From contig NZ_SLUP01000002.1 of the NCBI RefSeq assembly GCF_004341235.1, positions 310,001-374,000 of the forward strand: DNA of 64,000 nt. The letters run 5' to 3'. This document shows, one piece after another, positions 1,798-44,950 of the stretch (the first letter of the stretch is position 1; each line of letters opens with the position of its first letter). Under the pieces are notes generated by a model, which made no database searches, was not told the origin of the DNA, and worked only from the letters and a program-made list of their open reading frames with translations. A program made the translations under genes and the position numbers. The DNA comes from Mariniflexile fucanivorans (lineage in GTDB: Bacteria > Bacteroidota > Bacteroidia > Flavobacteriales > Flavobacteriaceae).

Positions 1798-2460
1798 CTA
1801 TTTAGTTAATGGAACTAAAACACGTATTTTATTTCGTGCAGAAGAAATTTTATTTTCGTCGTTAAGTTGTTTCATTATTCTAGAAATCACTACTCTTGAA
1901 GTATGTAAATCGTGAGCAATTTCTAGGTGGGTGATTTCAAGTTCGCAATTATTATTAATCTCTGCTTTGTGTGTTAAATATTTTAAAATACGTTCGTTTA
2001 AATTCATAAATGCCAAACTATCAATAGCATCAACCATTTCTAGTAATCGAAAATGATAACTATCAATAATAAAATATCGCCAAGATTTATATGTAACTAT
2101 CCAATCATCAATGTATTCAACAGGTATAAAAATGGCTTCTAGGTCTTTTTCAACAATACCTTTAAAAATACTTCGTTTTTTATTGATACAATTGGCGAAT
2201 GAAATGGCGCAAGTATCACCACTTTCTAAGAAATAAAGAACAATTTCTTCTCCATTTTTCTCTTTCCTTATTATTTTTAAAATACCTTCTAAAATAAGTG
2301 GAATATGAGACATTTTGCCTCCAATATTAATTAAAAGTTCACCACTTTTAATTTTTTTATATTCACCAACTTTAATGATTTCATCAATTAATTCTTTATC
2401 AAATGTTTTTGGATAATATTTTTTGATTTTATTTCTTAAAAAAAGTTCTTGTTTGCTCAC
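1798..2460 (-). CDS. Crp/Fnr family transcriptional regulator
   Basis: 220 aa with a GTG start. An N-terminal cyclic-nucleotide-like beta-roll (about 30-120; GGKMSHIPLILEGILKIIRK, then GEEIVLYFLESGDTCAISF) is followed by a dimer helix and a C-terminal winged helix with ITHLEIAHDLHTSRVVISRI. There is no N-terminal cysteine cluster of the FNR 4Fe-4S type. The only cysteines are about residues 84, 91 and 171. In the recognition helix the usual Glu of SRE-V-SR is Val (SRVVISR), so its DNA site may differ from canonical CRP/FNR boxes. It sits between moeA and the sulfur oxidoreductase operon and probably regulates one of them; the signal is unknown. Confidence 0.9.
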   Translation of the reverse strand: MSKQELFLRNKIKKYYPKTFDKELIDEIIKVGEYKKIKSGELLINIGGKMSHIPLILEGILKIIRKEKNGEEIVLYFLESGDTCAISFANCINKKRSIFKGIVEKDLEAIFIPVEYIDDWIVTYKSWRYFIIDSYHFRLLEMVDAIDSLAFMNLNERILKYLTHKAEINNNCELEITHLEIAHDLHTSRVVISRIMKQLNDENKISSARNKIRVLVPLTK

Positions 2461-2512: not shown

Positions 2513-3124
2513 TTAACAGCCGCCTTCTGCCGTTTTTTTCTTTTTTTGTTTTACTGTTATAACTTTTTTAGGAGGCGTCACAATTTGAATTACAGAGCTA
2601 GAATCTGCATTTTTTGTAGATTCTTTAATAAATTCAGCTATATCTTTTTCAGATTTTTCAATATCACTATTCTTTGTTATTAATCTGTTTTGTAAATAAC
2701 TGATTTCAGCTTTTAAAAGCTTAACATTATTGTACCCAAGTTGGTATAAAATTAATAACGTAGTATTAACTTCTTCAGGATTATTTCCGTACAAAACAAC
2801 TGTTTTTCCAGCTTTTTTTAAACTTTTAAAAATTTCCAAATTAGCTTCTTTTAAAATCTCTGGAGTTGAAATATTGATAGCAGTATCCAAATGCCCTTTA
2901 TCAAATTCATAGGAACTTCTAACATCAATTAATTTATAATTTTGGTTATTTACATTTACTAAAGGCACAAAAAAACTATCGCTAGTTATTTTCTCAAGCG
3001 CTGTTTTTGTATTTAAAGCAAACGTATTTTTTGGTCTTTTATAGGTAAGAAGTCCAATAATTACAGCCAATATAAATAAGGTAGAAGCAATAGATATATT
3101 TTTAACTTTTTCTAATTCTTTCAT
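2513..3124 (-). CDS. Membrane-anchored rhodanese-like protein, catalytic Cys absent, C-terminal Gly-Gly-Cys tail
   Basis: 203 aa from the ATG at 3124 (a longer frame to 3154 lacks plausible N-terminal features). An N-terminal helix (ISIASTLFILAVIIGLLTY) anchors a periplasmic rhodanese fold: YKLIDVRSSYEFDKGHLDTA, later LGYNNVKLLKAE. The loop that normally carries CxxGxR reads YGNNPEE, so the catalytic Cys is gone. After a linker comes a Lys-rich tail ending KKKKTAEGGC; this terminal Cys is the only cysteine in the protein. The neighbouring gene has the same tail on another Cys-less rhodanese loop. Last gene of the 8739->2513 operon. Likely handles sulfur, but not as an ordinary sulfurtransferase. 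Confidence 0.85.
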   Translation of the reverse strand: MKELEKVKNISIASTLFILAVIIGLLTYKRPKNTFALNTKTALEKITSDSFFVPLVNVNNQNYKLIDVRSSYEFDKGHLDTAINISTPEILKEANLEIFKSLKKAGKTVVLYGNNPEEVNTTLLILYQLGYNNVKLLKAEISYLQNRLITKNSDIEKSEKDIAEFIKESTKNADSSSVIQIVTPPKKVITVKQKKKKTAEGGC

Positions 3125-3164
3125 GTTATTATTTTTAATTTTTATTGGAAACAATCAATTTAAA

Positions 3165-3824
3165 TTAACAGCCACCTTCTGCTACTTTCTTTTTCTTTTT
3201 AACTGTAATTATTTTTTTAGGTGCTATTTTAGGTGTTTCCACTTCATTAGACTGTACCTGATCTGGATATACAACACCAAAAAACATACTGGCTGCTTTT
3301 CTAGTATCATATAAACTATAGGCTTCTTCGGGCATATCTTCGGTGGGTTTTGGTGGGTTTATTATGGTTTTAAACCAATGGTTAAGCCCTCCTTTTAAAA
3401 CACGTAAATTTTTAAATCCCAATCTGTTGCATAAAATCCACGCTTGGTCTGCATAATAATGATCATTTGAAAAAAAGACGACATCAAATTGATTTTGATT
3501 TAGATATGCCTTCGATTCATCATCTAATAATTTTTTAAGCGGAATATTAATGGCGTTGGGAAGCGTATAGGAATTATAACTATTTTCATCTCTTACGTCC
3601 ACTAATATAAATGAAGGGTCTTGGCTGATTAACTTATGCGCCATTTGATCGGTTGAAATGTAGCGTTCTAAACTAATAGTATTGGCAAGTAATTGCTCTG
3701 GTTTTATACCTTCATTTTTTTGATATTTAGGCAATAACACCAATCCTCCAGCTAAAACCACGAGTATTAATGCGAGAATCTTATATCTGAAGTTAAGAAA
3801 TTTTGCAGTTTGTTTTTTAGTCAT
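3165..3824 (-). CDS. Second membrane-anchored rhodanese-like protein with Gly-Gly-Cys tail
   Basis: 219 aa, ATG at 3824. One N-terminal membrane helix (YKILALILVVLAGGLVLL, about 14-31), then a rhodanese domain: FILVDVRDENSYNSYTLPNA (72-91), VFFSNDHYYADQAW in place of the CxxGxR loop, and LGFKNLRVLKGGLNHWF. The catalytic Cys is missing; remaining cysteines are Cys132 in the helix after the loop and the very last residue in KKKKKVAEGGC. It is a diverged paralogue of the next gene downstream (40 bp away) and follows the YeeE/YedE pair by 17 bp. Inferred role: periplasmic sulfane or thiosulfate handling for the NrfD-linked oxidoreductase. Confidence 0.85.
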   Translation of the reverse strand: MTKKQTAKFLNFRYKILALILVVLAGGLVLLPKYQKNEGIKPEQLLANTISLERYISTDQMAHKLISQDPSFILVDVRDENSYNSYTLPNAINIPLKKLLDDESKAYLNQNQFDVVFFSNDHYYADQAWILCNRLGFKNLRVLKGGLNHWFKTIINPPKPTEDMPEEAYSLYDTRKAASMFFGVVYPDQVQSNEVETPKIAPKKIITVKKKKKVAEGGC

Positions 3825-3841: not shown

Positions 3842-4432
3842 TTAGTAAAACACTTTTTTTATCTTTTTCTGAACAAAATCAGAAAAGGCAAATGCAACTA
3901 TGGCGATAATTGAAAAAATGAATATAAACCAATATGGGTTCCAGCTAAAGGTGTCCATTAATGTGATATTTCCTAAAAAATAGCCATCGTATATAGGTTC
4001 GATGAAGTTAAATAGTTCAGAGAACATAAAAATACCGAGTAATATACCACCCACATAAACCCAAGCATCTAGTTTACCAATGGCAACAGCGCATAAACTC
4101 GTGCCTGGACAAAAACCACCGGCTACAAAACCTACGCCCATAATAGCACCACCTATAATAGCACCCCATAAATACGTTGGATGTACATACAGTTGCGTGA
4201 TATCTAAATAACCTAAATAATCCATATAATACAGACCAATTACAGAAACTACTGCAGCTGTAAAAAACACTTTCAATACAGCAAAATCGTAGCCATAAAA
4301 TACGCCTGCAAGTTTTCTTGAAGAAGAAAAACCAGAAGCTTCGAGTACAAACCCGAAAACGATTCCAATTAAAATTGCGATGATACTATTCCATTCTAAT
4401 GGAATTAAATTGTTAGGAATTAATGGTCCCAT
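3842..4432 (-). CDS. YeeE/YedE (TsuA-type) thiosulfate transporter half-protein
   Basis: 196 aa, about five membrane helices. Family signatures: GFVLEASGFSSSRKLAGVFYG near residue 27-47 and the conserved GFVAGGFCPGTSLCAVAIGK loop with two cysteines. YeeE/TsuA of E. coli and Spirochaeta takes up thiosulfate through a relay of conserved cysteines and is about twice this length; here the function appears split over this gene and the next upstream one, each carrying one G-C motif. Lies 20 bp downstream of its partner inside the sulfur operon. Uptake or passage of thiosulfate or related sulfur anions is the likely job. Confidence 0.88.
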   Translation of the reverse strand: MGPLIPNNLIPLEWNSIIAILIGIVFGFVLEASGFSSSRKLAGVFYGYDFAVLKVFFTAAVVSVIGLYYMDYLGYLDITQLYVHPTYLWGAIIGGAIMGVGFVAGGFCPGTSLCAVAIGKLDAWVYVGGILLGIFMFSELFNFIEPIYDGYFLGNITLMDTFSWNPYWFIFIFSIIAIVAFAFSDFVQKKIKKVFY

Positions 4433-4452: not shown

Positions 4453-4983
4453 TTAAATCCAGTTTTTTCTAAAAAAGTAAGCCGTGGCGTATGCCGTTCC
4501 AAATATGGCGAGCATCGTAACAAATCCACCAGTAGAGAGTACTGCCATACCGCTTAAAGCAGCACCACTAGTACAACCGCGAGCTATTTGTGCTCCTAAG
4601 CCAAATAGAACACCTCCTAATAAAGCAAATACCAAACGGCGTTTGCTACTAATTTTTGGCGAATGTTGAACTCTCCAACGAATTCTTCCGCTTAATCCTC
4701 CAGAAATAAAGGCTCCAATTAAAACGCCTAAGGCTTCATAAACCAACCAGGTATTCATAGGAGAATCGTCTTCACTAATAAAAGTGCTATAATAAGCATT
4801 ATGTTCTGCATGCGAAGGCGCCACAGTATCTACTAAAGTAACCACGCTACTTTTCATAGCTCCACTAGCTCCTAAACCTCTACCTGTGATGTAAAAAGTA
4901 AAAATGATGATGATACCTAAAATGAATCCTCCGAAATACGGATTCCAATAAGTATGGCTATTTGTTTGTTTATCTATTTTCAT
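4453..4983 (-). CDS. YeeE/YedE family transporter, second half-protein
   Basis: 176 aa. An N-terminal helix, an extracytoplasmic stretch (residues about 45-75) and two or three C-terminal helices containing GGVLFGLGAQIARGCTSGAA with the family Cys. It pairs with the 3842-4432 product; together they equal one full YeeE/YedE. It starts 12 bp after the NrfD subunit gene, so it is translated in the same operon. Function inferred as thiosulfate-type anion transport; the family also includes proteins of unproven substrate. Confidence 0.87.
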   Translation of the reverse strand: MKIDKQTNSHTYWNPYFGGFILGIIIIFTFYITGRGLGASGAMKSSVVTLVDTVAPSHAEHNAYYSTFISEDDSPMNTWLVYEALGVLIGAFISGGLSGRIRWRVQHSPKISSKRRLVFALLGGVLFGLGAQIARGCTSGAALSGMAVLSTGGFVTMLAIFGTAYATAYFFRKNWI

Positions 4984-4995
4984 AATTTAGTGTTT

Positions 4996-5955
4996 TTAAT
5001 AAAGAAAACGTGTTAATTGTCCGGCTTCTACCATAACGAATCTGAAAACGATTCCGCCAATAATTACTAACATTGCAGGAACTATTACCGGTACTTTGTA
5101 ACCAATAAGTTCAATAAGTTCCATAACAGCTGGTACTATCAATCCAAGTATGACTACAAATCCAAAAAACATAACGGTAAAATCGCCACCAACTAATAAT
5201 TGCATAGCCTCTAATTGAACTTGAGAACCTGCGTAATAGCCCATTATCATATGCACAATTAATGCTAATTCAATAATTATTAATGCTAAATCTATTTTAC
5301 CAAATAAGTGTCTTTCTTTTGTGTTTTTGGATAATAAAATAATAGCTGCGGCACCAGTTGAAAGTCCGGAAGTTAAAAATAATGGGCCTAAAATAGCGTT
5401 GTTCCAAAGTGGTCTTGCATTAAATGCCGATAGTAAAATACCCGTATAAACGCCTAGAATTAAAGCTAATGGAACTAGAGCATAGGCAATATAAATTCTA
5501 TTTTTTACAATGAATTGTTCGAATGTATTTAAGAATTTAAGGCGTTGAAATAATTTTAATTTAGCTTCTGTTTTTGGATATACTTCTCTGTAATAGCTGA
5601 ACGTCCAGATAAATGATAAGGGCGTTACAATAAGTAAAACCCAAGCTCCCCAAGACATGGGCGATTCTATTCTGAAGGTTGTATAAAGTTGCCAGGTGTA
5701 TAGTTTGTGGGTTAAGTCGTAAACTAACGCCATTAATCCAAGAGATAATGCTATTGGAGGCACAATGGAAATTACTTTAACGGCTGTTGAGTATTCATTA
5801 TCTTTTTTTAAGATATAAAATAACGCCGCAAAAAATAAAATACCTGCTGCCAATCCACCTAAAAATAAGTACAAGGAAATTGGCCAATGCCAGATTTGTA
5901 ATGAAGGATCTATATTTGGAATATTTCTTCCGCTAGTAAATAATTCTTCTTGCAT
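4996..5955 (-). CDS. NrfD/PsrC family membrane subunit of a molybdoenzyme complex
   Basis: 319 aa with about eight to nine membrane helices, starting near SLYLFLGGLAAGILFFAALF. NrfD/PsrC/SoeC proteins anchor the molybdopterin and Fe-S subunits and exchange electrons with the quinone pool. No haem-binding motif is evident, as expected. Order A-B-C (molybdopterin, ferredoxin, NrfD) with short gaps (10 bp to the ferredoxin gene) is that of polysulfide/thiosulfate/tetrathionate reductases and of sulfite dehydrogenase SoeABC; the sequence does not tell which, or the direction of catalysis. Confidence 0.92.
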   Translation of the reverse strand: MQEELFTSGRNIPNIDPSLQIWHWPISLYLFLGGLAAGILFFAALFYILKKDNEYSTAVKVISIVPPIALSLGLMALVYDLTHKLYTWQLYTTFRIESPMSWGAWVLLIVTPLSFIWTFSYYREVYPKTEAKLKLFQRLKFLNTFEQFIVKNRIYIAYALVPLALILGVYTGILLSAFNARPLWNNAILGPLFLTSGLSTGAAAIILLSKNTKERHLFGKIDLALIIIELALIVHMIMGYYAGSQVQLEAMQLLVGGDFTVMFFGFVVILGLIVPAVMELIELIGYKVPVIVPAMLVIIGGIVFRFVMVEAGQLTRFLY

Positions 5956-5965
5956 AATTGTTATT

Positions 5966-6499
5966 TTAAATTAAGTAAAATACATGTGGATTTGTACCTG
6001 CTTCTGGTGCTAAGGTTTTATATTTTCTGTTTTTCAACAATTGAGAAACTTCACTATTCGGATTATCTAAATCCCCAAAATACATACACTTAGTAGGGCA
6101 AACAGAAACACATGCTGGAAGTTGTCCTTTTTCCAACCGATGATGACAGAATGTACATTTATCTACATAACCATCAGGATGTTGGTAACGCGCATCGTAA
6201 GGACATGACTCTATACAAGCGCCACAACCTATACATTCATCGGCGGTGACTAAAACAATACCTCCATCTACAATATGACTTGCTCCTGTTGGGCAACAGC
6301 GTACACAAGGGGCATTATCACAATGGTTGCAACGTTCAGATTTTAATTCCATTACAATGTTAGGATAGGTTCCATCAACCGTTTCGGTAATCCAATCTCT
6401 GCAATATCCAAGTGGTACATTATTTTCCGTTTGACAAGCAACAACACAATCACTACATCCAACACATTTTAATGTGTCTATAACCATCGCATATCTCAT
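5966..6499 (-). CDS. 4Fe-4S ferredoxin-type electron-transfer subunit
   Basis: 177 aa; ATG at 6499 overlaps the stop of the catalytic subunit by 4 bp. Cysteines fall into the sixteen-Cys, four-cluster pattern of PsrB/PhsB/DmsB proteins: C12-x2-C15-x2-C18-x3-C22, CNHCDNAPCVRCCP, CIGCGACIESCP, and CTFC...CVSVCP. It should relay electrons between the molybdopterin subunit and NrfD. It has no signal peptide of its own and is presumably exported with the Tat-targeted catalytic subunit. Confidence 0.95.
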   Translation of the reverse strand: MRYAMVIDTLKCVGCSDCVVACQTENNVPLGYCRDWITETVDGTYPNIVMELKSERCNHCDNAPCVRCCPTGASHIVDGGIVLVTADECIGCGACIESCPYDARYQHPDGYVDKCTFCHHRLEKGQLPACVSVCPTKCMYFGDLDNPNSEVSQLLKNRKYKTLAPEAGTNPHVFYLI

Positions 6500-8739
6500 A
6501 TCACTTCGTTTTTATGTGGATCTTCAGTAAGTATAGTAACATAATTTCCTCTCATACCAGTTCCTCCCATGATAGGGTCTGTAAATATTCTCGAAATCAT
6601 TTGGGTATCGTCAATGCCTTTACCATACGATCTAGTTAATTTTTTATTATCATTTCCAAAGCCATGAACCATATAAACAGAATCCCAGCGAACACGTTCT
6701 GTAACTCTTACCTTTATTGAAAATGTTGAAATAATGTCATCTTGATTTTTTAACCAAACATATTGCCCCTTTTTCAGTCCAAGAATTCGGGCTACTTTAG
6801 GATTTACCCATAGGTCATTTTCTTTTTTTAGCTCGGTTAAATTTGGGTTGTTAGACGTCCTGCTAAAAGTATGCATAGGCGAACGACCGTAATTTAAACG
6901 GTAGAAACCTTGAGGCGGTTCTGGATGCGGTGTATAAACTGGCAGAGCATCAAAACCTTTTTCAGCTAATTCGTGCGAATAAAATTCAATTTTCCCACTA
7001 GGTGTATGAAATACATGAGTTTCATCTTCATTCAAATACATAGAGCCTGTTGTTCGCGGGTATTTTTTAACGCCAATTTTCTCCATTTCTTCTCTTGAAG
7101 TTCCCATTTCTTTTAATTGCCAATCAACAACTTCATCAAAATCGTTATAATTATAATAGTCTTCCAAGCCTAATCGCATGCCAATTTCTTTAGCTATCCA
7201 CGCACCCGGTTTAGACTCATATTTAGGTGGTACAGCTGCAAATCGTACTGCGATAGAAGGCTCTCTGTTGGTGGCAGACCGCACAATATCAGTACGTTCT
7301 AGATAAGTACATTCTGGAAGAATCACATCGGCATACCCAGTAATATCCATCGGCATGGTGTCTATTACTACTAAAAACTCTAAAGCTTCTAAGGCTTCTT
7401 GTAATTGTTTAGTATCTGGAATAGATTTAATTAGATTTGTTCCTGCAACCATCCACGCTTTAATAGGGTATTTATTATCTTTATTAGGAATTGAACACCT
7501 AATAAGTTCATTGGTAAGCCCCATTTGTGCAAGCGGAAAATTTTCACCTATATCTCGCCAATCCCATTTAGGTTCAGGATATTCTGGATGAGGAAAATTT
7601 GGAACCGAAATACTTTCTTTAAAATAGAACCCTCCACGGCGTCCCCACGATCCTAATAATCCATTTAAAATAGCGATAGCGCGTTCTCTTTGTGTATCAT
7701 CTCCATACCAAACCACATGTCTGCCTGGATGTACAATGACGGCAGGAGCTGCATGCGCCATGGCTCTAGCCGTTTTTCTAATTTCTTCTGGTTTTATGGT
7801 CGTTACACCGTAAGCCCATTCGGGTGTGAATTGTTTAACATGTGCTTTTAATTCATCAAAACCTAAAGCATATTTTTCAACATATTCTTTGTCATATAGA
7901 TTTTCTTCAATTAATACATGCATCCAAGAAAGTAACAATGCAATATCGGTAGCTGGTTTAATGGCTAACCAATGTTGTGATTTACTAGCTGCAGTTGAAA
8001 AACGAGGATCTACAGTTATGATAGTGGCGCCATTATCTATGGCGTCAGACATTTCTTGTACTTGGGAGTTATGCATATTCTCTCCAATATGAGAACCTAT
8101 TAATACCAAGCATTTCGTATTCCGTATATCGGTTGGTTCTGGAGAGCCTACCCAAGAGCCATATGTTAAGGCAAAAGCCGTTTCTCTTGGCCCTCTACAT
8201 TGTGCAAAAGCAGGTTCTGCATTTGTGTCTGATCCATAGGCTCTAAATAAATGTTCGAAATGCCAACCTGGGCAACCATGTTTAAGTAAAGCAAATGCTT
8301 CGGGACCATATTTTTCTTTTATCCCTTTAAATTTTGAAGCAACTAGGTTCAAAGCTTCATCCCAACTAGCTTCTCTAAAGGTTTGTTCTCCATTTATGGT
8401 GGTTCTAATTAAAGGCGTTTTTAATCGGTCTTCATCATTATACATGCCTACACCACCAGTTCCTCTGGGGCAAAGTCTGCCGTTGCAATGTGGATCGTCA
8501 TCATTTCCAATAATTTTTTGTACATTTCCTTTATCGTCTGAATATGCCCAACCTGCACATTTCCAAAAGCATACTTCACAATACGTGGCCGTTCTTTTAA
8601 ATTTGTTAGCAATGTTTTCTTTAATAACCGAATCTATTAAAGAATTACCACCAAACATTTTGTAGGCGGTAGAAACTGTTGCTAAACCTCCTAAACCTAA
8701 GGCAGAAATTTTTATAAATTTTCTTCTCGAAGTAGTCAT
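6496..8739 (-). CDS. Tat-exported molybdopterin oxidoreductase, PsrA/PhsA/SoeA-like catalytic subunit
   Basis: 747 aa from the ATG at 8739, chosen because it opens a Tat signal TTSRRKFIKISALGLGGLAT; the frame extends to 8805 but without coding character. A 4Fe-4S site follows (Cys54, 57, 61, 90; TYCEVCFWKC...LCPRG). Cys180 in AFAQCRGPRETA is the likely Mo ligand. Later blocks (GRHVVWYGDDTQRERAIAIL, ILPECTYLERTD, and a C-terminal MGD-binding domain with YGRSPMHTFSRTSNNP) are typical of the DMSO-reductase superfamily. First gene of the operon 8739->2513. Substrate probably polysulfide, thiosulfate, tetrathionate or sulfite, judged from the YeeE and rhodanese neighbours. Confidence 0.92.
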   Translation of the reverse strand: MTTSRRKFIKISALGLGGLATVSTAYKMFGGNSLIDSVIKENIANKFKRTATYCEVCFWKCAGWAYSDDKGNVQKIIGNDDDPHCNGRLCPRGTGGVGMYNDEDRLKTPLIRTTINGEQTFREASWDEALNLVASKFKGIKEKYGPEAFALLKHGCPGWHFEHLFRAYGSDTNAEPAFAQCRGPRETAFALTYGSWVGSPEPTDIRNTKCLVLIGSHIGENMHNSQVQEMSDAIDNGATIITVDPRFSTAASKSQHWLAIKPATDIALLLSWMHVLIEENLYDKEYVEKYALGFDELKAHVKQFTPEWAYGVTTIKPEEIRKTARAMAHAAPAVIVHPGRHVVWYGDDTQRERAIAILNGLLGSWGRRGGFYFKESISVPNFPHPEYPEPKWDWRDIGENFPLAQMGLTNELIRCSIPNKDNKYPIKAWMVAGTNLIKSIPDTKQLQEALEALEFLVVIDTMPMDITGYADVILPECTYLERTDIVRSATNREPSIAVRFAAVPPKYESKPGAWIAKEIGMRLGLEDYYNYNDFDEVVDWQLKEMGTSREEMEKIGVKKYPRTTGSMYLNEDETHVFHTPSGKIEFYSHELAEKGFDALPVYTPHPEPPQGFYRLNYGRSPMHTFSRTSNNPNLTELKKENDLWVNPKVARILGLKKGQYVWLKNQDDIISTFSIKVRVTERVRWDSVYMVHGFGNDNKKLTRSYGKGIDDTQMISRIFTDPIMGGTGMRGNYVTILTEDPHKNEVI

Positions 8740-8761
8740 AAGTTTAATTGTTTGTCTGTGA

Positions 8762-8804
8762 TAAAAATATTTAAAAAGGGATTGTGATATTATGATAAAT
8801 GTCA
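8762..8804 (-). promoter_or_regulatory. FNR-like promoter of the molybdopterin oxidoreductase operon
   Basis: Box TGATAAATGTCA at 8793-8804 and, on the minus strand, TATTTTTA at 8769-8762 (TAnnTTTR). Centre of box to last base of the element is 36.5 bp, the spacing seen in five other promoters here, and it would place the box near -41.5. Predicted leader is only about 18 nt. Confidence 0.6.
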
Positions 8805-8820
8805 TGTTATCAGTATTTTA

Positions 8821-8869: not shown

Positions 8870-8900
8870 TAAATATTGTAATTTTGAATTACAATATTTA
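8870..8900. promoter_or_regulatory. 14-bp perfect inverted repeat over the -7 element and start codon of the twelve-haem cytochrome gene
   Basis: TAAATATTGTAATT (8870-8883), TTG spacer, AATTACAATATTTA (8887-8900). It contains the TAATTTTG promoter element at 8879-8886 and ends on the A of the ATG. Reads as an operator or as a hairpin in a very short leader. Confidence 0.6.
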
Positions 8901-10795
8901 TGATGAAAAACAAGAATTATTTAAGAGGATTTTTTACGCTAGTATTTTTGCTTTTTGCCATATTATTTGTTTTTAGAAATAAATATATTTTTGAAAGTGA
9001 TACTAAATATGAAAATGGTATTTCAACCAACCATATTTTAAATTCCGAATCATGTTTTGCTTGTCATACAATGACCAAAGGCTTTTCAAATTATCATAAT
9101 CCTGAACTTATTGGTTGCGCAAGTTGTCATTTAGGAAATACCATTGCATTTACTAAAGAAGAGGCACACAAGGGCATGATTTTAATTCCAGGAAATTTAG
9201 CCGATGCTAAGGAAACCTGCGGAACATGCCATCCCAACGAACTAAATAAAATTAATACGTCGTTAATGACTACCAATTGTGGTTTAGTAGCTGTAGATAA
9301 GTTTATTTTTGGTGAAGCGGATTCCCCAGATTATCATTACCATATTAAGGACATAAAAAATTCGCCTTCAGACAAGCATCTTAGAGATTTATGTGCTAAT
9401 TGCCATTTAGGAGCAGAAAAAACAAGTTATGGTCCCATTACTGAAATAAGCCGTGGTGGTGGTTGTAATGCCTGTCATTTAAATTATTCCAAAGAAGCAA
9501 CAGATGATTTAGATGCCTATTTAGCTTCAAATAAAAAGAAACTTCCATCATTTCACCCTTCAACAAACATTTTTGTAAACGATACCCATTGCTTTGGATG
9601 CCATAGCAGGTCTAGTAGAATTTCAACCAATTATATAGGCTTTCAAGAAACTTTATTGAATAAAGAAGAAGTAAAAAACAAAACGGAATATAAGGTTTTT
9701 GAAGATGAACGCGTTTATAAATTTATAGAAGAAGATGTACATCATACAAAAGGTTTGTTGTGTATAGATTGCCATTCATCTCACGAAGTTATGGGTGATG
9801 GAAACACCTATTCGCATGCTGAACAAGCGGTGAAAGTTCAATGTATTGATTGCCATTTTAAAAATAAAGCTAACACAATTCCTTATGATTCTTTAGATAC
9901 TGAAAGTAGACTGGTGTTTTTGCATCGTGATTATAAACATACTGATAAGCAAATTATTGTTACTAAAAAAGACAAGAACCCTTTAGTTAATACCTTTATA
10001 GATTCAAAAGGAAAAGCATTTTTAATAGGTAAAAAAGATGGCAAACTTCATAATATAAAACAACAATCTTTAGTTTGTTCTGGTGATAATGCGCATGAAA
10101 ATGTGAGTTGTTCCAGTTGTCATTCATCATGGACACCACGTTGTATTGGTTGCCATAATCAATTTGATAAAGATGAAACTAGTGGCTTCGACTTATTAGA
10201 TAAAAAATATGTAAAAGGCCAATGGAAAGAATATGTTGCAGAATTCTCATCTTCCAAACCCGCTTTAGGCATAAGGGAAACTAAAGAAGGTAAAAAAATA
10301 GAGCCAGCTATACCGGGTATGATTTTAACTATTGATAAAGGGAGTTATTCCAATAAAAACATAGGTGAAGATGTATCCTTTCACAGGTTATATGCACCAA
10401 ATTCTCCGCATACCATTACTAAAAATGTTCGCGATTGTAAATCGTGCCATTCCAATGCTGCTACTCTAGGTTATGGAAATGGAACTTTAACTTATGAAAT
10501 TAAAAACAATAATGGCAAGTGGGTTTTTATACCCGAATACGCATTGAACGAAAATGACAATTTACCCGAAGATGCATGGATACCTTTCCTTAAAAAGGAA
10601 GATAAATCAATTATAAAATCCACAAGAACCGATTTCAGACCCTTTAATGTATCTGAACAAAAACGCCTATTATTAGTAGGTGCTTGTTTACAATGCCATA
10701 AAGATGACTCGAAGGTGATGAAACAAACTTTGGAGGTTGGCTTAAATCCTATGATGAAAAAATTAAGCAAAGCATGCCTCCTTCCTAAAAATTAA
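8900..10795 (+). CDS. Membrane-anchored dodecahaem cytochrome c (twelve CxxCH)
   Basis: 631 aa. An N-terminal helix (about 9-25) serves as anchor or signal. Twelve CxxCH haem motifs begin at about residues 52, 73, 107, 165, 189, 231, 288, 315, 404, 415, 513 and 596. Extra unpaired cysteines occur near 127, 393 and 626. The product would be periplasmic. I do not recognise a characterised enzyme family; it is not NrfA (no CxxCK), nor octahaem Otr/HAO by haem count. Divergent from the molybdoenzyme operon and upstream of nrfHA, so it may be an electron conduit or a terminal reductase. A Met-Met start leaves the exact first residue open (8900 or 8903). Confidence 0.88.
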   Translation: MMKNKNYLRGFFTLVFLLFAILFVFRNKYIFESDTKYENGISTNHILNSESCFACHTMTKGFSNYHNPELIGCASCHLGNTIAFTKEEAHKGMILIPGNLADAKETCGTCHPNELNKINTSLMTTNCGLVAVDKFIFGEADSPDYHYHIKDIKNSPSDKHLRDLCANCHLGAEKTSYGPITEISRGGGCNACHLNYSKEATDDLDAYLASNKKKLPSFHPSTNIFVNDTHCFGCHSRSSRISTNYIGFQETLLNKEEVKNKTEYKVFEDERVYKFIEEDVHHTKGLLCIDCHSSHEVMGDGNTYSHAEQAVKVQCIDCHFKNKANTIPYDSLDTESRLVFLHRDYKHTDKQIIVTKKDKNPLVNTFIDSKGKAFLIGKKDGKLHNIKQQSLVCSGDNAHENVSCSSCHSSWTPRCIGCHNQFDKDETSGFDLLDKKYVKGQWKEYVAEFSSSKPALGIRETKEGKKIEPAIPGMILTIDKGSYSNKNIGEDVSFHRLYAPNSPHTITKNVRDCKSCHSNAATLGYGNGTLTYEIKNNNGKWVFIPEYALNENDNLPEDAWIPFLKKEDKSIIKSTRTDFRPFNVSEQKRLLLVGACLQCHKDDSKVMKQTLEVGLNPMMKKLSKACLLPKN

Positions 10796-14885: not shown

Positions 14886-17800
14886 ATGCAAAAACTATAT
14901 AAATTCTTCTCCTCGTCAAGTTTAGCTTTACTGTTACTGTTAGTATTTGCAACGGCTATGGCTATTGCTACATTTGTTGAAAACGATTATGGAACAGCAA
15001 CCGCATGGGTAGTTATATACGATTCTTGGTGGTTTGAATTAGTAATGCTAGGTCTGGTTATTTCATTTATAGCCAACATATTTAAATACAAATTGCTTCG
15101 AAAAGAAAAGTGGGCTATCCTTTTATTTCATGTGGCTTTTATCATCATCATTCTAGGTTCGGCAATTACAAGATATACGTCGTACGGAGGTATTATGCGT
15201 ATTAGGGAAGGTGCTTCTTCAAACATTATTATATCTGACACTAATTTTTTGAACGCTACGATTACCGATGGAAAAACGAAAACTATATTAAAAGAAAAAT
15301 TAGCGTTCTCACCTATTCAAAATAATGATTTCTCTTTAGAAACCACTTTTAATAATAAGCCTATTATTATTTCTTACAAAGAATTTATTCCAGATGCCAT
15401 TGCAGAAGTCGTTGATAATGATGAAGATGGAGAACCCTTATTAGAAATGGTTGTTACCGAAGGTGAAGGTAGAAATACCATCTATTTAAAACATGGTGAA
15501 ATTCAAAAATTTGGCGATCACCAACATGAAATTGGTTTTAATTCTGAAAAAGAAAGCATTATAAATATAGTTGAAGAAAATGGCGCATTCAGTATAAAAT
15601 CACCTCATGACTTAGATTTTTTCATGATGGCTTCACAACAAGCAGGCACCTTAGTTAAAGATAGTTTGCACCCTATTAATTTACGAACGTTGTACAGGTC
15701 TGGAGATATTTCATTTGTACCCTTATCCTATCATGAAAAAGGTGCTTTCAAAATTAAAAGCACTTCTGCAAAACCAAAAGATAACGACAAAACAAAAGAC
15801 GATGCATTACTAGTAAATGTATCTGTAAATGGCAAAGAAAAACCTTTAAATTTATTATACAGACAAGGTATGTTGCCAACACATCATGACATAGAAATTG
15901 ATGGTGTTCGCGTTATACTTTCTTACGGTGCCGCTGCTATTCAAACGCCTTTTTCAATAAAGCTAAACGATTTTCAATTAGAACGTTACCCAGGTTCTTC
16001 TAGTCCTTCAGCGTATGCCAGTGAAGTTTTAATACTTGATGGTGAAGACATGATTCCTTATAAAATATTTATGAATAATGTACTGGATTATAAAGGCTAT
16101 CGTTTTTTTCAAGCAAGTTATGATACCGATGAATTGGGAACCGTTTTATCTGTAAATCACGATAGTTTAGGCACCATTGTTACATACATAGGCTATCTTT
16201 TATTGACGTTGGGTATGTTTTTTGCCCTTTTCGGAAAAGCATCTCGCTTTCATTTTATAAACAAAAAACTAAAGCAATTAAAAAAACCCTTGGCAACTCT
16301 AATTTTATTGCTGGGTATTCAATTTGGTTTTTCCCAAAACACAAAAGATTCTACGGCTATTTTTGTTGAAAGATTGGTGGAATCACAAAAAACAGATAAA
16401 GCACATGCCGACTTTTTTGGTAGATTATTGGTTCAAGACTTAGACGGAAGAATTAAACCTATAAATACACTGGCTTCAGAATTTATTAGAAAAATTTCAA
16501 GAAAATCGAACTTTTCATATCCCGTTAAAAACGAAACATTAGTTTTAGATGCCAACCAAGTGTTTTTAGCAATTCATATGGCACCTAATGTTTGGCAAGA
16601 AATACCTATGATAAAGGTAGATTTTGACAAAACTGGAAATGTTCTAAAAGATGTGAAAATTGGGGCGAATACATTGGTGTCTTTCAAAAGTTTAATGGAC
16701 GCAAGCGGCAACTATTTATTATCAAAAGAAGTTGAGGAAGCTAATAAGAAAAAACCTGCCGAACGCAATGAATTTGATAAAGAAGTACTAAAAATTGACG
16801 AACGTTTCAATATTCTATATAACTTATTTATAGGCAATTATCTTAAAATATTCCCTAACAAAAACGATTCCAATAACACGTGGTTTAGTTATATTCACGA
16901 TTTTAACGATTTCCCAGAAGAAGATGCCAAATTTGCACAAAGCATCCTTCCCGCTTATTTTAATGATGTTGCAACCTTTAAATATGATGATGCACATGAA
17001 AAGTTAATGTACATTAAAAAATACCAAGAAGTTTTAGGTGCCGAAGTCATTCCAACCCCAGAAAGAATAGAAGCTGAAATTTGGTACAACAAAACAAATG
17101 TAAACTTTTGGTTGTTTCAAGTATTCTTTACCATTGGGTTTGTATTGTTAGTAATCGCTATTTTAAAGATGTTTTCGCATAAAAAAATTATCGAACTCAT
17201 TAATAACACCTTTATAATTCTAACATTAATTTCATTTTTATGCTTTACAGCTAATATTATTTTGCGTTGGTATGTGGCACAACACGCCCCTTGGAGCAAT
17301 GGTTATGAAATGTTGGTTTTTGTAGCTTGGGTATTATTATTATGTGGCTTATTAACATTTAGAAAATCAGATTTTTCACTACCACTGGCTACCCTATTTT
17401 CTGGCGCCCTATTGTTTGTAAGTTATTTGGATTGGTTGAATCCAGAAATCACCAATTTAATGCCTGTATTAAAATCGTATTGGTTAAAAATTCACGTAGC
17501 AACTATAGTAAGTAGTTATGCACCTTTGGCTTTATCTGCTGTTCTAGGACTCATGGCGTTAATACTTATAATTTTTAAAAACCCAAAAAACAAAGCTATT
17601 ATAGAAACTAAAGTTAAAGAACTTAGCTATATAAATGAAATAGCCATGACCATTGGTTTGTTTGTTTTAGCCATCGGAACATTTTTAGGTGGTGTGTGGG
17701 CTAACGAATCTTGGGGACGTTATTGGGCTTGGGATCCCAAAGAAACTTGGGCCTTAATAAGCATCATCGTTTATGCTATTGTGTTGCATTTAAGATTTAT

Positions 17801-18023
17801 ACCAAAATTAAATAATAATTACGTTTTAAATGTGGCGAGTATGTTTGCGTTTTGGTCTATAATCATGACATCCTTTGGAGTCAATTATTACCTTTCAGGT
17901 TTACATAGTTACGCCGCAGGCGACCCCTTACCTATTCCAAAATTTGTATATGTTGTAGCATTATTAATGGTTGTTGTTGCCATAATAGCCTATTTTAGAA
18001 ATAAGCAGATGAAAACTGAATAA
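14886..18023 (+). CDS. Fused ResB-CcsA (CcsBA) System II cytochrome c synthetase, nrf-linked copy
   Basis: 1045 aa. ResB-like N-terminal half: membrane helices near 12-28, 44-62 and 78-96, FKYKLLRKEKW, and a large periplasmic domain with RYTSYGGIMRIREGAS. C-terminal CcsA half has the WWD haem-handling motif WGRYWAWDPKETWAL and conserved His of HAPWSNGYEM and GLHSY. CcsBA exports haem and attaches it to CxxCH proteins. It lies directly after nrfHA and is paralogous to 41762-44950. By analogy with Wolinella NrfI this copy may be needed for the CxxCK haem of NrfA. It could also serve the twelve-haem cytochrome. Confidence 0.93.
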   Translation: MQKLYKFFSSSSLALLLLLVFATAMAIATFVENDYGTATAWVVIYDSWWFELVMLGLVISFIANIFKYKLLRKEKWAILLFHVAFIIIILGSAITRYTSYGGIMRIREGASSNIIISDTNFLNATITDGKTKTILKEKLAFSPIQNNDFSLETTFNNKPIIISYKEFIPDAIAEVVDNDEDGEPLLEMVVTEGEGRNTIYLKHGEIQKFGDHQHEIGFNSEKESIINIVEENGAFSIKSPHDLDFFMMASQQAGTLVKDSLHPINLRTLYRSGDISFVPLSYHEKGAFKIKSTSAKPKDNDKTKDDALLVNVSVNGKEKPLNLLYRQGMLPTHHDIEIDGVRVILSYGAAAIQTPFSIKLNDFQLERYPGSSSPSAYASEVLILDGEDMIPYKIFMNNVLDYKGYRFFQASYDTDELGTVLSVNHDSLGTIVTYIGYLLLTLGMFFALFGKASRFHFINKKLKQLKKPLATLILLLGIQFGFSQNTKDSTAIFVERLVESQKTDKAHADFFGRLLVQDLDGRIKPINTLASEFIRKISRKSNFSYPVKNETLVLDANQVFLAIHMAPNVWQEIPMIKVDFDKTGNVLKDVKIGANTLVSFKSLMDASGNYLLSKEVEEANKKKPAERNEFDKEVLKIDERFNILYNLFIGNYLKIFPNKNDSNNTWFSYIHDFNDFPEEDAKFAQSILPAYFNDVATFKYDDAHEKLMYIKKYQEVLGAEVIPTPERIEAEIWYNKTNVNFWLFQVFFTIGFVLLVIAILKMFSHKKIIELINNTFIILTLISFLCFTANIILRWYVAQHAPWSNGYEMLVFVAWVLLLCGLLTFRKSDFSLPLATLFSGALLFVSYLDWLNPEITNLMPVLKSYWLKIHVATIVSSYAPLALSAVLGLMALILIIFKNPKNKAIIETKVKELSYINEIAMTIGLFVLAIGTFLGGVWANESWGRYWAWDPKETWALISIIVYAIVLHLRFIPKLNNNYVLNVASMFAFWSIIMTSFGVNYYLSGLHSYAAGDPLPIPKFVYVVALLMVVVAIIAYFRNKQMKTE

Positions 18024-41761: not shown

Positions 41762-44700
41762 CTACTTTTTATAATGTTTTTTATAACCCAAATAGGCGAA
41801 AATCCCTAACAAAACAATGATGCCAATCGCAATCAATATAATATTCAAGCTTGCAATTTGTTGTCCAGATTGATAAGAATGCAAACCAGACAAGTAAAAG
41901 TTAACTCCAAAATAAGTAAAAATAATACTTGAAAACGCTACAATAGACATGAGGTTAAAAAACCAACGTCCACGAAGCCCAGGAATTAATCGCATGTGTA
42001 TTACAAAAGCATAAACCATAATACTGATAAGCGCCCAAGTTTCCTTTGGGTCCCAACCCCAATAGCGTCCCCAACTTTCATTAGCCCACATACCACCTAA
42101 AAAGTTTCCTATGGTAAGCATTACTAAACCAACTGTTAACGACATTTCGTTAATTATGGTAAGTTCTTTAATGTTTAAATCCATTTTCACCTTATTCTTT
42201 TCAGTAGTAAAAATCATTAATAATAATGAAACCACACCTAAAATCATCCCTAAAGTAAATGGTCCATAACTTGCCACAATAACCGCTACATGTATCATTA
42301 ACCAATAACTGTTTAAAACGGGTTGTAAATTGGCAATAGCAGGATCCATCCAGTTCCAATGTGCAATCATTAATAACATAGCCGTTACAAATGCGGTAGA
42401 TGCGAAGGTTAAATCGCTTTTTCTTCCAAAGGCTAAACCAAAAAACATGGTTGCCCACGCAACGTATATCATAGATTCATAAGCATCACTCCAAGGTGCA
42501 TGACCCGAAATGTACCAACGCATTATCAATCCTAAAGTATGTAAAACAAATAATCCTAAAATAATGACTTTGAAAACGGTTACAGAAATATCAAGAGCTT
42601 TACTTTTCTCTTTAAAAATTTGTACAATTAGCAGCACAAACATTAAACTACCTGCATACAAATACCAGCTAAATAATTTTTTGAAAATATCGTACTTATT
42701 GTATAGAATTTCGGCGTTTATTTTTTTATCAGTCAACATAACATCACCACCATATTGATGCTGCGTTTTTTTGAAGGCATCCAATAATTTTGTGGCTTCG
42801 GAAAAATCACCCGATTGTTTGGCTCTATTTAATGTAATTAAATACATTTTGAAACCATTTTTTATGAAATTTCCGTAAAGGGAATCTTGAACTTTATACT
42901 CACCATATTGATATTCATTAGCTGAAATCCATTTATTATTTTCATCGTTTGGAATTGGGAAAATTTTTAATGAAGCACCTTCAATAGTGTTGTACAATAA
43001 GTTAACACGCTGGTCGGCTTCTTTAATTTCCTTTTGATACCCATTGGGAGCCAAAGCTTTATAGGCTTCATCTAAAAAAGGAGTTAATTTGTACTCACCT
43101 CGTTCAGTAAAAAAATCGGCAAGCGTTACATATTCTTCTTTCGCATCGACTTGGATAAGATGTCTTATAGTATCTGCTTTTTTAGTTGCCAAATAAATAA
43201 TTGGAACATTATACCAAAGCATCGGGCTTTCTTGCATCGATAAAAATACTTGGTTGGCATCAAAATCTTCATAATCATCATGTTTACTCAACTTACGAAG
43301 CATTTCAGATGCATAGGTATTAACGGGCATCATGCGTCCGCTTAAATCCTGAATTACCAAATGACCAAAGGCATCGGCATGCGCTTTAGGCGTAATATTT
43401 GCAGCTAAAACAGAATCTATTTGAGCTTTTGTTGGTTTAGTATTATGGTTATGCCCATCATCATCTGTATGAGTTTGAGCAAATGTATTTAAACCAAAAA
43501 GCAATAATACAATACCTAATAATTTCGCTTTTTTTGCTTTTACTTTTTCTAACATTACTTTTAATTCACCAAAACGGGAACCTTTAACAAAAAGAATCGC
43601 CATTAAACCAAAATACAGTAAAAAATACCCAATATAAGTGATTAACGACCCCCAATAATCATGGTTTACAGATAGGATTGTACCTTTTTCATCAGGATCA
43701 AAACTCGATTGAAAAAAACGATAGCCACCATGATCTAAAATATTATTCATGAAAATTTTATAGTCGTAGCTACTTTCTTTATCATCAATTACGGTCACTT
43801 GACTTGAATATGATGAATATCCTTTTTCAGTACCCGGATAACGTTCTGCTTCAAAATCGTTTAATTTTATTGAAAATGGTAATTCCAATACTTTTGAACC
43901 GTATTTGAAAGCAAAATCCAATCCGCCAACTTTCACTTGTTTAAAAGCATTATTCATACCTTTACCTCCTAATAAACCTACCCGCTGGGTTTCACCATTA
44001 GCGGTAACTTTAAGTACCACACCATCATCATCATTCCTTAAAATTTGCGATTTTTGAACAATATCAAACACCCCTTTAACCACGGGCTTTGGAAATACCA
44101 TTTGCATATCGCCAATTACATAGCGCGAACGCAATATTAAAGGCTGTAAACTGTCTTTTACTAACTTGCCCTGTGCCATAGTAGCCATAACCATATACTC
44201 TCCTTCAAACGGTGATTGAATAGTTAAGGCATTATTTTCGTATGTAATATTTACAGCACCATTGGTTGGATTATTAAGGGCAAATAAAATGTTGTGTATG
44301 CTTTGTACTTCACCAACTTTTAAAAAATGGTTATGGGCGCCACCGCCACCAGCTTCAACCATTTTTAAATATTCGGCACCATTTTCGTCTGGAACAATAT
44401 CTTCTTCAGCACCTTTTATAAATTTCTCCAACTCAATTGTGACAAGTTGTTTATTATAATTGGTTTGAATTTTAAAATCGTTTTCTAAACGTGCTGAAAA
44501 ATCGACTTCACGTTCAATAGGCAAACGCTGAGTTACACCATCAATTTTATAATCACCATCTATATAGGAAGTTATATATGTTTTTTGAGATAGGAAAGTA
44601 TTTTCGGTAGCTCCTTCTCTAATGGCCATCATCCCTTCAAAACTAATGTATCGGGTAATAAAAGCACCTAAAAGAATAAAAATAAAAGATAGATGTAAAA

Positions 44701-44950
44701 TTAATGTAGCCCATTTTTCTTTTCTAAGTAATTTATATCTAAAAATATTACCTATAAAATTGATAATAAAAAACACCATGATTGCCTCAAACCACCAAGC
44801 ATTATAAATTAAATTTCTTGTGTATGGAGTTGGGGATGTGCTTTGTCCGGCATCCAAAAAAGTACCCGTAGCCATTGCTGCTGCAAATACTATAAATAAA
44901 ATACCGGTAAGTCGTGTTGAGAAAAGAATTTTCGCGAGTTTATTTTGCAT
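41762..44950 (-). CDS. Fused ResB-CcsA (CcsBA) System II cytochrome c synthetase, second copy
   Basis: 1062 aa, same architecture as 14886-18023: ResB-type helices at the N-terminus (LTGILFIVFAAAMATGTFLD; FRYKLLRKEKW), RYISFEGMMAIREGATEN, a His/Asp-rich insert (THTDDDGHNHN) in the middle, and the CcsA WWD motif WGRYWGWDPKETWAL with SGHAPWSDAYESM. Not linked to cytochrome genes, so it is probably the general haem-attachment enzyme for CxxCH cytochromes. An AAACTT-type array lies in its leader. Confidence 0.93.
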   Translation of the reverse strand: MQNKLAKILFSTRLTGILFIVFAAAMATGTFLDAGQSTSPTPYTRNLIYNAWWFEAIMVFFIINFIGNIFRYKLLRKEKWATLILHLSFIFILLGAFITRYISFEGMMAIREGATENTFLSQKTYITSYIDGDYKIDGVTQRLPIEREVDFSARLENDFKIQTNYNKQLVTIELEKFIKGAEEDIVPDENGAEYLKMVEAGGGGAHNHFLKVGEVQSIHNILFALNNPTNGAVNITYENNALTIQSPFEGEYMVMATMAQGKLVKDSLQPLILRSRYVIGDMQMVFPKPVVKGVFDIVQKSQILRNDDDGVVLKVTANGETQRVGLLGGKGMNNAFKQVKVGGLDFAFKYGSKVLELPFSIKLNDFEAERYPGTEKGYSSYSSQVTVIDDKESSYDYKIFMNNILDHGGYRFFQSSFDPDEKGTILSVNHDYWGSLITYIGYFLLYFGLMAILFVKGSRFGELKVMLEKVKAKKAKLLGIVLLLFGLNTFAQTHTDDDGHNHNTKPTKAQIDSVLAANITPKAHADAFGHLVIQDLSGRMMPVNTYASEMLRKLSKHDDYEDFDANQVFLSMQESPMLWYNVPIIYLATKKADTIRHLIQVDAKEEYVTLADFFTERGEYKLTPFLDEAYKALAPNGYQKEIKEADQRVNLLYNTIEGASLKIFPIPNDENNKWISANEYQYGEYKVQDSLYGNFIKNGFKMYLITLNRAKQSGDFSEATKLLDAFKKTQHQYGGDVMLTDKKINAEILYNKYDIFKKLFSWYLYAGSLMFVLLIVQIFKEKSKALDISVTVFKVIILGLFVLHTLGLIMRWYISGHAPWSDAYESMIYVAWATMFFGLAFGRKSDLTFASTAFVTAMLLMIAHWNWMDPAIANLQPVLNSYWLMIHVAVIVASYGPFTLGMILGVVSLLLMIFTTEKNKVKMDLNIKELTIINEMSLTVGLVMLTIGNFLGGMWANESWGRYWGWDPKETWALISIMVYAFVIHMRLIPGLRGRWFFNLMSIVAFSSIIFTYFGVNFYLSGLHSYQSGQQIASLNIILIAIGIIVLLGIFAYLGYKKHYKK

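Follow-up and report, generated by a model that had tools for sequence, protein, structure and literature searches.

SoxY carries its Cys in an arm with the motif GGCGG. Transfer of sulfur from that Cys into the transporter SoxT has been considered, and the periplasmic presentation of sulfur is discussed for SoxYZ and SoxT (PMC11582611). Among transporters of the YeeE/YedE type, the two halves of YedE1E2 import zero-valent sulfur and both of their Cys are essential (PMC10812762), the Cys of PmpB and PmpA correspond to Cys91 and Cys293 of TsuA, all three Cys of SoxT1B are essential (PMC11582611), and YeeD has been described as the 'fourth cysteine' of the relay, on the cytoplasmic side (PMC11073785). 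A rhodanese occurs in a Psr operon and YeeE/YedE has been proposed to receive sulfur from periplasmic sulfurtransferases (PMC12142623), and in Dethiobacter rhodaneses cluster with SirA/MccA-like cytochromes (PMC10376724). Here we describe two adjacent tailed rhodanese-fold proteins, RhdA and RhdB, encoded beside a split YeeE transporter in DNA of Mariniflexile fucanivorans (GCF_004341235.1, contig NZ_SLUP01000002.1, 310,001-374,000 of the forward strand; this 64,000-nucleotide stretch is the window, and position 1 is its first letter). We think it probable that they are periplasmic, membrane-tethered sulfur-carrier arms on a rhodanese scaffold, which serve the split YeeE and a respiratory sulfur reductase.

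Two rhodanese-fold proteins with a cysteine at the tail tip

The original prediction, made from the letters of the window, placed two adjacent membrane-anchored rhodanese-like proteins at 2513-3824. This is borne out, as both open reading frames (ORFs) lie on the reverse strand and match the Pfam family Rhodanese (PF00581; E 4.6e-14 for RhdA and 2.2e-13 for RhdB), which at E 0.001 or better is the sole family in either protein, with no SoxY (PF13501) or TusA (PF01206) domain. RhdB, however, is likely to start later than its ORF: translation probably begins at ATG 3124, giving 203 aa instead of the 213 aa from TTG 3154, because relatives begin MKELEK. RhdA has 219 aa, with Cys at 132 and 219. 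As foreseen, the catalytic-loop Cys is lost from both proteins, its place being taken by Ser in the FSNDHYY of RhdA, which starts at residue 118, and by Gly in the YGNNPEE of RhdB; both Lys-rich tails (ITVKKKKKVAEGGC in RhdA and TVKQKKKKTAEGGC in RhdB) terminate in KKKK-x-AEGGC, and in RhdB the final residue is the only Cys. The last 16 residues of the two proteins are identical at 10 of 16 positions, 4 of which are encoded by different codons. Judged by their loops, RhdA and RhdB would not be active rhodaneses.

The model of RhdA, built from six sequences, has a helix at residues 3-37 that spans the transmembrane (TM) stretch, followed by a rhodanese domain with a predicted local distance difference test (pLDDT) score of 76-89 in blocks of ten residues. 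Residues 190-219, the tail, score below 50 and are predicted to be disordered. In a comparison of this model with solved chains, the ten best rows are all rhodaneses (Z 12.8-13.9, root-mean-square deviation 1.7-5.0, 96-120 residues aligned); the RhdB model is of lower confidence, with a mean pLDDT of 63.5. RhdA and RhdB are confirmed as membrane-anchored rhodanese-fold proteins that lack the catalytic-loop Cys and bear a Cys at the tip of the tail.

The two halves of the neighbouring transporter both have the Sulf_transp domain and a conserved Cys, as expected of YeeE and PmpAB. One Cys is invariant in each half (59/59), a second being present in 29 of the 59 YeeE_N sequences, and in many relatives YeeE_N is fused directly to a GGC-tailed rhodanese. 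Two other pairs of YeeE halves in the M. fucanivorans genome have no rhodanese nearby, and a search of this genome gave no TusA-family match (the control was positive in 11/14).

Conservation of the terminal cysteine in Bacteroidota

All counts come from a sample of 395 genomes of one phylum, judged from its named relatives L021 and L022 to be Bacteroidota, in which G numbers denote genomes and L numbers the loci read. With RhdA as query, 62 places in 59 of the 395 genomes matched at E 1e-8 or better, and all 62 were read. Because the RhdA query itself carries the tail, the rhodanese-free YeeE_N was run as an unbiased check; it matched 72 places in 66 genomes, 59 of them already read from the RhdA query and 13 new. 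Its strong matches, all better than E 1e-30, fall at 67 places in 64 genomes, and a tailed rhodanese, with Cys as its last or penultimate residue, is found at every one of these loci: 66 are intact and one, in G626, is a split ORF, with KKKKREGC at the end of the downstream piece. None of the five lowest matches (E 1e-11 to 1e-17) has a tailed rhodanese, while two of them adjoin an untailed rhodanese-domain protein. The 13 new places divide into 8 with and 5 without a tailed rhodanese; seven of the 8 have a gene of the octaheme tetrathionate reductase (OTR) type and one has a molybdo-complex, and at the OTR-type loci of G607 and G636 no cytochrome b was seen in the stretches read.

For comparison of individual residues we used 85 tailed proteins, leaving out G520 and G574, which are ordinary rhodaneses with neither tail nor context, and the split ORF of G626. 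Since 18 of the 85 had been added as known paralogues or relatives, the unbiased figure is that of the 67 YeeE_N loci. The loop Cys is absent from 81 of the 85, the catalytic position being occupied by Ser (33), Gly (24), Ala (23), Asp (1) or Cys (4). In 70 proteins the last Cys closes the chain and in 15 it is the penultimate residue; in 60 it is the sole Cys within the last 200 residues. Ahead of it stand GG (57), EG (19), MG (4), GL (2) and also DG, FQ and RG; what stays constant is therefore the Cys and not the diglycine. The basic part of the tail varies as well, appearing as a K-run, KRVxGG or RMGC, and in G219 (locus L059:10-1374) as alternating K and E (KKVKVEVEEGGC) instead of the K-run. 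Retention of the terminal Cys in homologues, which the original prediction had set as its own test, and general loss of the loop Cys both agree with these counts; of the terminal GGC whose conservation it proposed to test, the Cys is kept in 85/85 and the GG is not, with EGC, MGC, DGC, FQC and RGC also occurring.

Of the 252 neighbouring genes taken from these loci, rhodanese-profile matches set aside, none has Cys in its last two residues, and the 11 other distinct rhodanese ORFs of the M. fucanivorans genome have none in their last four. Taken with the 67/67 strong YeeE_N loci, these figures reject a chance tail. Nor is the tail a lineage accident: it is kept across many related bacteria and, as predicted, accompanies sulfur oxidoreductase or sulfur-transport genes.

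The tail is also found on a rhodanese of another kind. G025 and G041 each encode a third rhodanese whose start resembles that of a lipoprotein and which keeps its loop Cys (L015:299-1429, L056:12024-13145); its SGGCG tail is shared with the two neighbouring rhodaneses that lack the loop Cys. In a rhodanese tree of 114 columns with many weak forks, in which Gemmatirosa's tandem-rhodanese label was assigned without a neighbour check, the third rhodaneses (G025C and G041C) cluster with ordinary rhodaneses (support 95/92) on a long branch. Plasmid searches yielded a Gemmatirosa plasmid (L091:5819-8432) encoding YeeE halves and a rhodanese without the loop Cys that ends RLRRRGC, and further rhodanese matches from Methylomonas (at the level of the gene table) and Sulfuricella.

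Operon partners and matching tails

In the order of transcription, the operon consists of the genes for a molybdoenzyme, an iron-sulfur (Fe-S) subunit, an NrfD-type subunit, YeeE_C, YeeE_N, RhdA, RhdB and a Crp/Fnr regulator (Table 1), the last being presumably an operon member or the operon's regulator. The first three have the features of PsrABC/PhsABC, namely an exported-type molybdoenzyme with a Cys Mo ligand, an Fe-S subunit and an NrfD-type subunit. The putative Mo-ligand Cys, in AQCRGPRE, is present in 26/26 operon relatives and a motif of the twin-arginine translocation (Tat) type in 22/26. The NCBIfam PhsA score of the molybdoenzyme is 461.8, and since the equivalog cut-off of 694 is not reached, its substrate is not fixed; its solved relative 2vpw was deposited as a thiosulfate reductase and is known as the polysulfide reductase of Thermus.

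Table 1. Positions in the window of the tailed rhodaneses, their tails and loops, and the neighbouring genes
Feature	Position	Strand	Description or best evidence
RhdA	3165..3824	(-)	TM helix at the N-terminus, then a rhodanese domain lacking the loop Cys and a predicted disordered basic tail ending KKKKKVAEGGC
RhdB	2513..3154	(-)	second tailed rhodanese; ORF opens at TTG 3154
RhdA last 16 codons	3168..3215	(-)	KIITVKKKKKVAEGGC
RhdB last 16 codons	2516..2563	(-)	VITVKQKKKKTAEGGC
RhdA degenerate catalytic loop	3453..3473	(-)	FSNDHYY; Ser at Cys position
RhdB degenerate catalytic loop	2771..2791	(-)	YGNNPEE; Gly at Cys position
YeeE_N, PmpB-like N-terminal half of YeeE/YedE transporter	3842..4432	(-)	PF04143 1.4e-15; Cys108 in GGFCPG
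YeeE_C, PmpA-like C-terminal half of YeeE/YedE transporter	4453..4983	(-)	PF04143 4e-25; TsuA 6leo 5.6e-5; Cys137 in RGCTSG
NrfD/PsrC-type membrane subunit	4996..5955	(-)	PF03916 2.3e-47; 2vpw chain C 1.5e-4
PsrB-type multi-cluster Fe-S subunit	5966..6499	(-)	profile scans
PsrA/PhsA-type molybdoenzyme, Tat-like signal	6496..8805	(-)	2vpw_A 4.4e-187
Crp/Fnr-family regulator 3' of RhdB	1798..2460	(-)	profile scan
ExtM-like multihaem cytochrome, divergent	8900..10795	(+)	NF040943 235 bits, below the cut-off of 800

This arrangement is one of several. Judged within the limited stretches read around each match, the 62 RhdA-query places comprise 26 with a molybdo-complex of the polysulfide reductase (PSR) type, 28 with an OTR cytochrome and a cytochrome b, 5 with a tandem rhodanese (in the one read in L119, the second loop has a Cys), 1 with YeeE at a contig end and 2 ordinary rhodaneses without context or tail. 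The tail is intact at 25 of the 26 PSR loci, the other being the split ORF of G626, and is present at 28/28 OTR and 5/5 tandem-rhodanese loci. The second and, in this sample, commoner operon (L070:10408-14407, L101:3766-7752 and similar) encodes an OTR-family cytochrome, a PhsC-like cytochrome b, the C-terminal half of YeeE, and the N-terminal half fused to a tailed rhodanese. OTR loci were assigned by similarity to the L070 proteins, and the two octaheme proteins scanned by profile score 567.6 and 579.6 bits in TIGR04315, the octaheme tetrathionate-reductase family, for which the cut-off is 375. The solved relative is 1sp3, presumably from Shewanella. The octaheme family is the commoner context here, and strict dependence on the molybdoenzyme is rejected by the counts. 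Of the two partners originally proposed, the split YeeE stands as a near-constant one; the molybdoenzyme does not stand as the general one, being found at 26/62 loci against 28/62 with OTR, to which seven of the eight added loci belong.

Where an operon encodes two tailed paralogues, the tails resemble each other more than the bodies do. In nine such operons of close relatives the last 16 residues match at 14.0/16 positions on average, and the bodies of same-operon paralogues are 24 to 29% identical, about 26%. Between these genomes the situation is reversed: orthologous tails match at 8.0 to 8.2 of 16 positions, with bodies more alike (means of 50% and 39%). When partners are shuffled, the permutation p for the within-operon tail match is 5e-5. 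Across 11 pairs, 4 to 7 identical tail residues per pair are encoded by different codons; the match is therefore not that of a very fresh copy, and recent gene conversion as its sole cause is weakened. The matching of tails within an operon suggests a single partner site, specific to each operon, into which both arms fit.

The divergent ExtM-like cytochrome is a possible accessory of the operon, a relative being present at 10/26 PSR loci and 1/28 OTR loci in the stretches read. Similarity to the ExtH/ExtM selenite system is partial only, and this candidate was rejected on the ExtM score. In G434 (L064:1312-4122) an ExtP/ExtQ-like cytochrome b is joined with an ExtM-like part in one ORF. Elsewhere in the window, ORFs of 1045 aa (14886-18023, forward strand, following NrfH-like and NrfA-like genes) and 1062 aa (41762-44950, reverse strand) resemble what we take to be fused cytochrome c biogenesis proteins. 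The L090 ORF (381 aa; C2:307609-307842 of the same genome, before the window) lies close to MoeA (561-1739) and resembles, as we assume from its appearance, a MoeB-type E1 with a rhodanese domain that probably functions in molybdenum-cofactor synthesis.

Proposed role, alternatives and known systems

If RhdA and RhdB are sulfur-carrier arms, the reactive Cys would have left the rhodanese loop for the end of an extended, flexible arm of basic character, where it may take up a sulfane group as a persulfide, polysulfide or S-thiosulfonate. The basic residues of the tail could steer anionic sulfur species or docking, and the arm may swing from the periplasmic mouth of the YeeE channel to the active site of the reductase or to a sulfur source. 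The rhodanese domain would serve as a docking module, which together with the membrane anchor would keep the arm within the complex, and the Cys would be the sulfur carrier. At the channel mouth the arm would provide an extra relay cysteine for YeeE; we read the tail Cys as one added on the opposite, periplasmic face of the channel. The most likely use would be sulfur, polysulfide or thiosulfate respiration with controlled delivery of sulfur across the inner membrane, whichever way the sulfur flows. We infer a periplasmic location for both proteins, which is supported by the lipoprotein-like starts of the G025 and G041 paralogues and by the Tat-like signal of PsrA. A more specific proposal, which we hold tentatively and with some doubt, is that the relocated-Cys arm is the periplasmic extra Cys of YeeE, couples the sulfur relay to two unrelated reductases, and is a portable, operon-specific tag that also occurs on a loop-Cys rhodanese.

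Several observations weigh against these proposals. The positive-inside signal is modest, because K/R counts are higher before than after the TM helix in only 17 of 32 proteins, with 8 equal and 7 lower (15, 8 and 7 of 30 when two ordinary rhodaneses are left out). The loop Cys is retained in four of the 85 tailed proteins, the third paralogues of G025 and G041 as well as G478 and G394, and in G579 and L022A a Cys lies next to the catalytic loop position. The data come almost wholly from one phylum, with Gemmatirosa as the sole case outside it. Older gene conversion is a possible cause of the matching tails. G219 has a PSR complex and two tailed rhodaneses with no YeeE_N match anywhere at E 0.001, YeeE_C not having been searched there, which contradicts strict dependence on YeeE, and at five loci no reductase accompanies YeeE and the tail in the stretch read. 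Because of G219 and these five loci, neither YeeE nor a reductase is obligatory; the constant feature is the sulfur-metabolism context, and the near-constant partner is the split YeeE. The original interpretation is, overall, partly supported.

The terminal Cys might instead form a permanent disulfide, with a paralogue, YeeE or the reductase as its partner, and so tether the complex without carrying sulfur; this would suit the invariant YeeE Cys, the second Cys of some YeeE_N sequences and the operons in which two or three paralogues share matching tails. We consider this unlikely, as most RhdA-query loci have a single tailed rhodanese in the stretch read and the two invariant YeeE Cys match transport-essential residues of relatives (PMC11582611, PMC10812762). 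It is also quite improbable that the arm scavenges chalcogens or metals by binding selenite or tellurite products, soft metals or excess polysulfide. A lone Cys on a flexible tail is, on general grounds, a poor metal site, and the ExtM-like cytochrome that adjoins the operon scores far under its cut-off and has relatives at the minority of loci given above, even though the ext clusters of Geobacter hold a rhodanese, ExtH, and loss of ExtI affects selenite and tellurite reduction (PMC5877670). Both the window and several close relatives have a Crp/Fnr gene next to the operon, which recalls the signalling precedent of SoxT1B (PMC11582611), by which the arm would offer sulfur to YeeE and the cytoplasmic regulator would sense external sulfur. 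With a Crp relative in 2/62 contexts (limited stretches) and reductases frequent, such sensing is distinctly improbable as the role of the arm, although sensing and respiration are compatible, not exclusive.

Two further alternatives turn on the composition of the tail. Its basic part varies and Cys is its one constant residue, which leaves it very unlikely that the tail is an address or assembly tag whose Cys has no redox role, even if tails are operon-specific, common to paralogues and present also on a seemingly unrelated rhodanese. The GG ahead of the Cys in 57/85 proteins could point to C-terminal processing, in which loss of the Cys would expose a GG end for activation to a thiocarboxylate in the manner of ThiS/MoaD-like carriers, and the presumed MoeB-type E1 with its rhodanese domain is encoded a few kb past RhdB, outside the window. 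The chance of this seems to us very small, because GG is not conserved, being replaced by EG, MG, GL, DG, FQ or RG in the others, whereas the Cys is kept in 85/85; a MoeB-like ORF near MoeA is, moreover, to be expected for molybdenum-cofactor synthesis.

A sulfur-carrying arm on a rhodanese scaffold would bear on two open questions, how sulfur is presented to YeeE-type transporters in the periplasm and how periplasmic sulfur reductases are supplied with substrates that are insoluble or unstable. As the carrier is often fused to a transporter half and usually has one thiol, both are open to mutation of a single residue. If the proposal is true, this is a clear case of a catalytic Cys moved to a mobile arm, and as strong YeeE_N matches occur in 64 of the 395 sampled genomes, a module for sulfur respiration or sulfur relay may have gone unnoticed in many Bacteroidota. 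Full-text searches, in a collection that leaves out most subscription journals, turned up no account of a rhodanese whose tail ends in Cys.

Among described systems, a rhodanese-fold carrier tied to polysulfide reductase is already exemplified by 1qxn, which we take to be Sud, the polysulfide-sulfur transferase of Wolinella that feeds polysulfide reductase via a single loop Cys. It is a weak match in the RhdA sequence search (E 0.0081) and is absent among the 50 rows of the RhdA-model structure comparison, an absence that carries no weight either way; unlike Sud, RhdA and RhdB have no loop Cys and have a TM anchor and a Cys on a C-terminal arm. The likeness to SoxY that had been predicted lies in the layout, a Cys on a flexible, Gly-rich C-terminal arm, which extends to the SGGCG ends in G025 and G041. 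It does not reach the domain or the neighbourhood: the arm here is on a rhodanese scaffold with no SoxY domain, and no Sox family, SoxZ included, is found among the ten operon-region proteins scanned. DsrC/TusE similarly have a functional Cys at or beside the C-terminus of a flexible arm, but are of another fold and family and are cytoplasmic.

On the transporter side, YeeD/TsuB likewise contributes, as a partner, a Cys to the YeeE/TsuA relay (PMC11073785), but YeeD belongs to the TusA family and lies on the cytoplasmic side, and M. fucanivorans has no TusA match. The DsbA-like thioredoxin encoded beside soxT1A is closer in place, being a periplasmic partner of a YeeE-family protein with a Cys motif at its extreme C-terminus and a proposed release of sulfur to the transporter; it differs in its thioredoxin fold and CxxC motifs (PMC11582611), where RhdA and RhdB have a rhodanese fold and a single terminal Cys. 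PmpAB and YedE1E2 are likewise made up of paired halves, each having one conserved Cys (PMC10812762, PMC11582611), whereas the halves here are longer (176 and 196 aa) and are linked or fused to a tailed rhodanese. ExtH of the Geobacter ext clusters is a rhodanese beside an ExtM-type cytochrome (PMC5877670, PMC6148476), but is a 49 kDa lipoprotein of a different cluster. Of the solved structures, 2vpw is the nearest to the PSR partner and 1sp3 to the OTR partner; at the present loci a tailed rhodanese and YeeE halves adjoin the reductase. An arm-borne sulfur carrier is of a known kind, and the rhodanese scaffold, the relocation of the Cys and the fusion to YeeE appear to be new. On our best reading, the arms of RhdA and RhdB work like SoxY, DsrC or Sud and by sequence belong to none of them.

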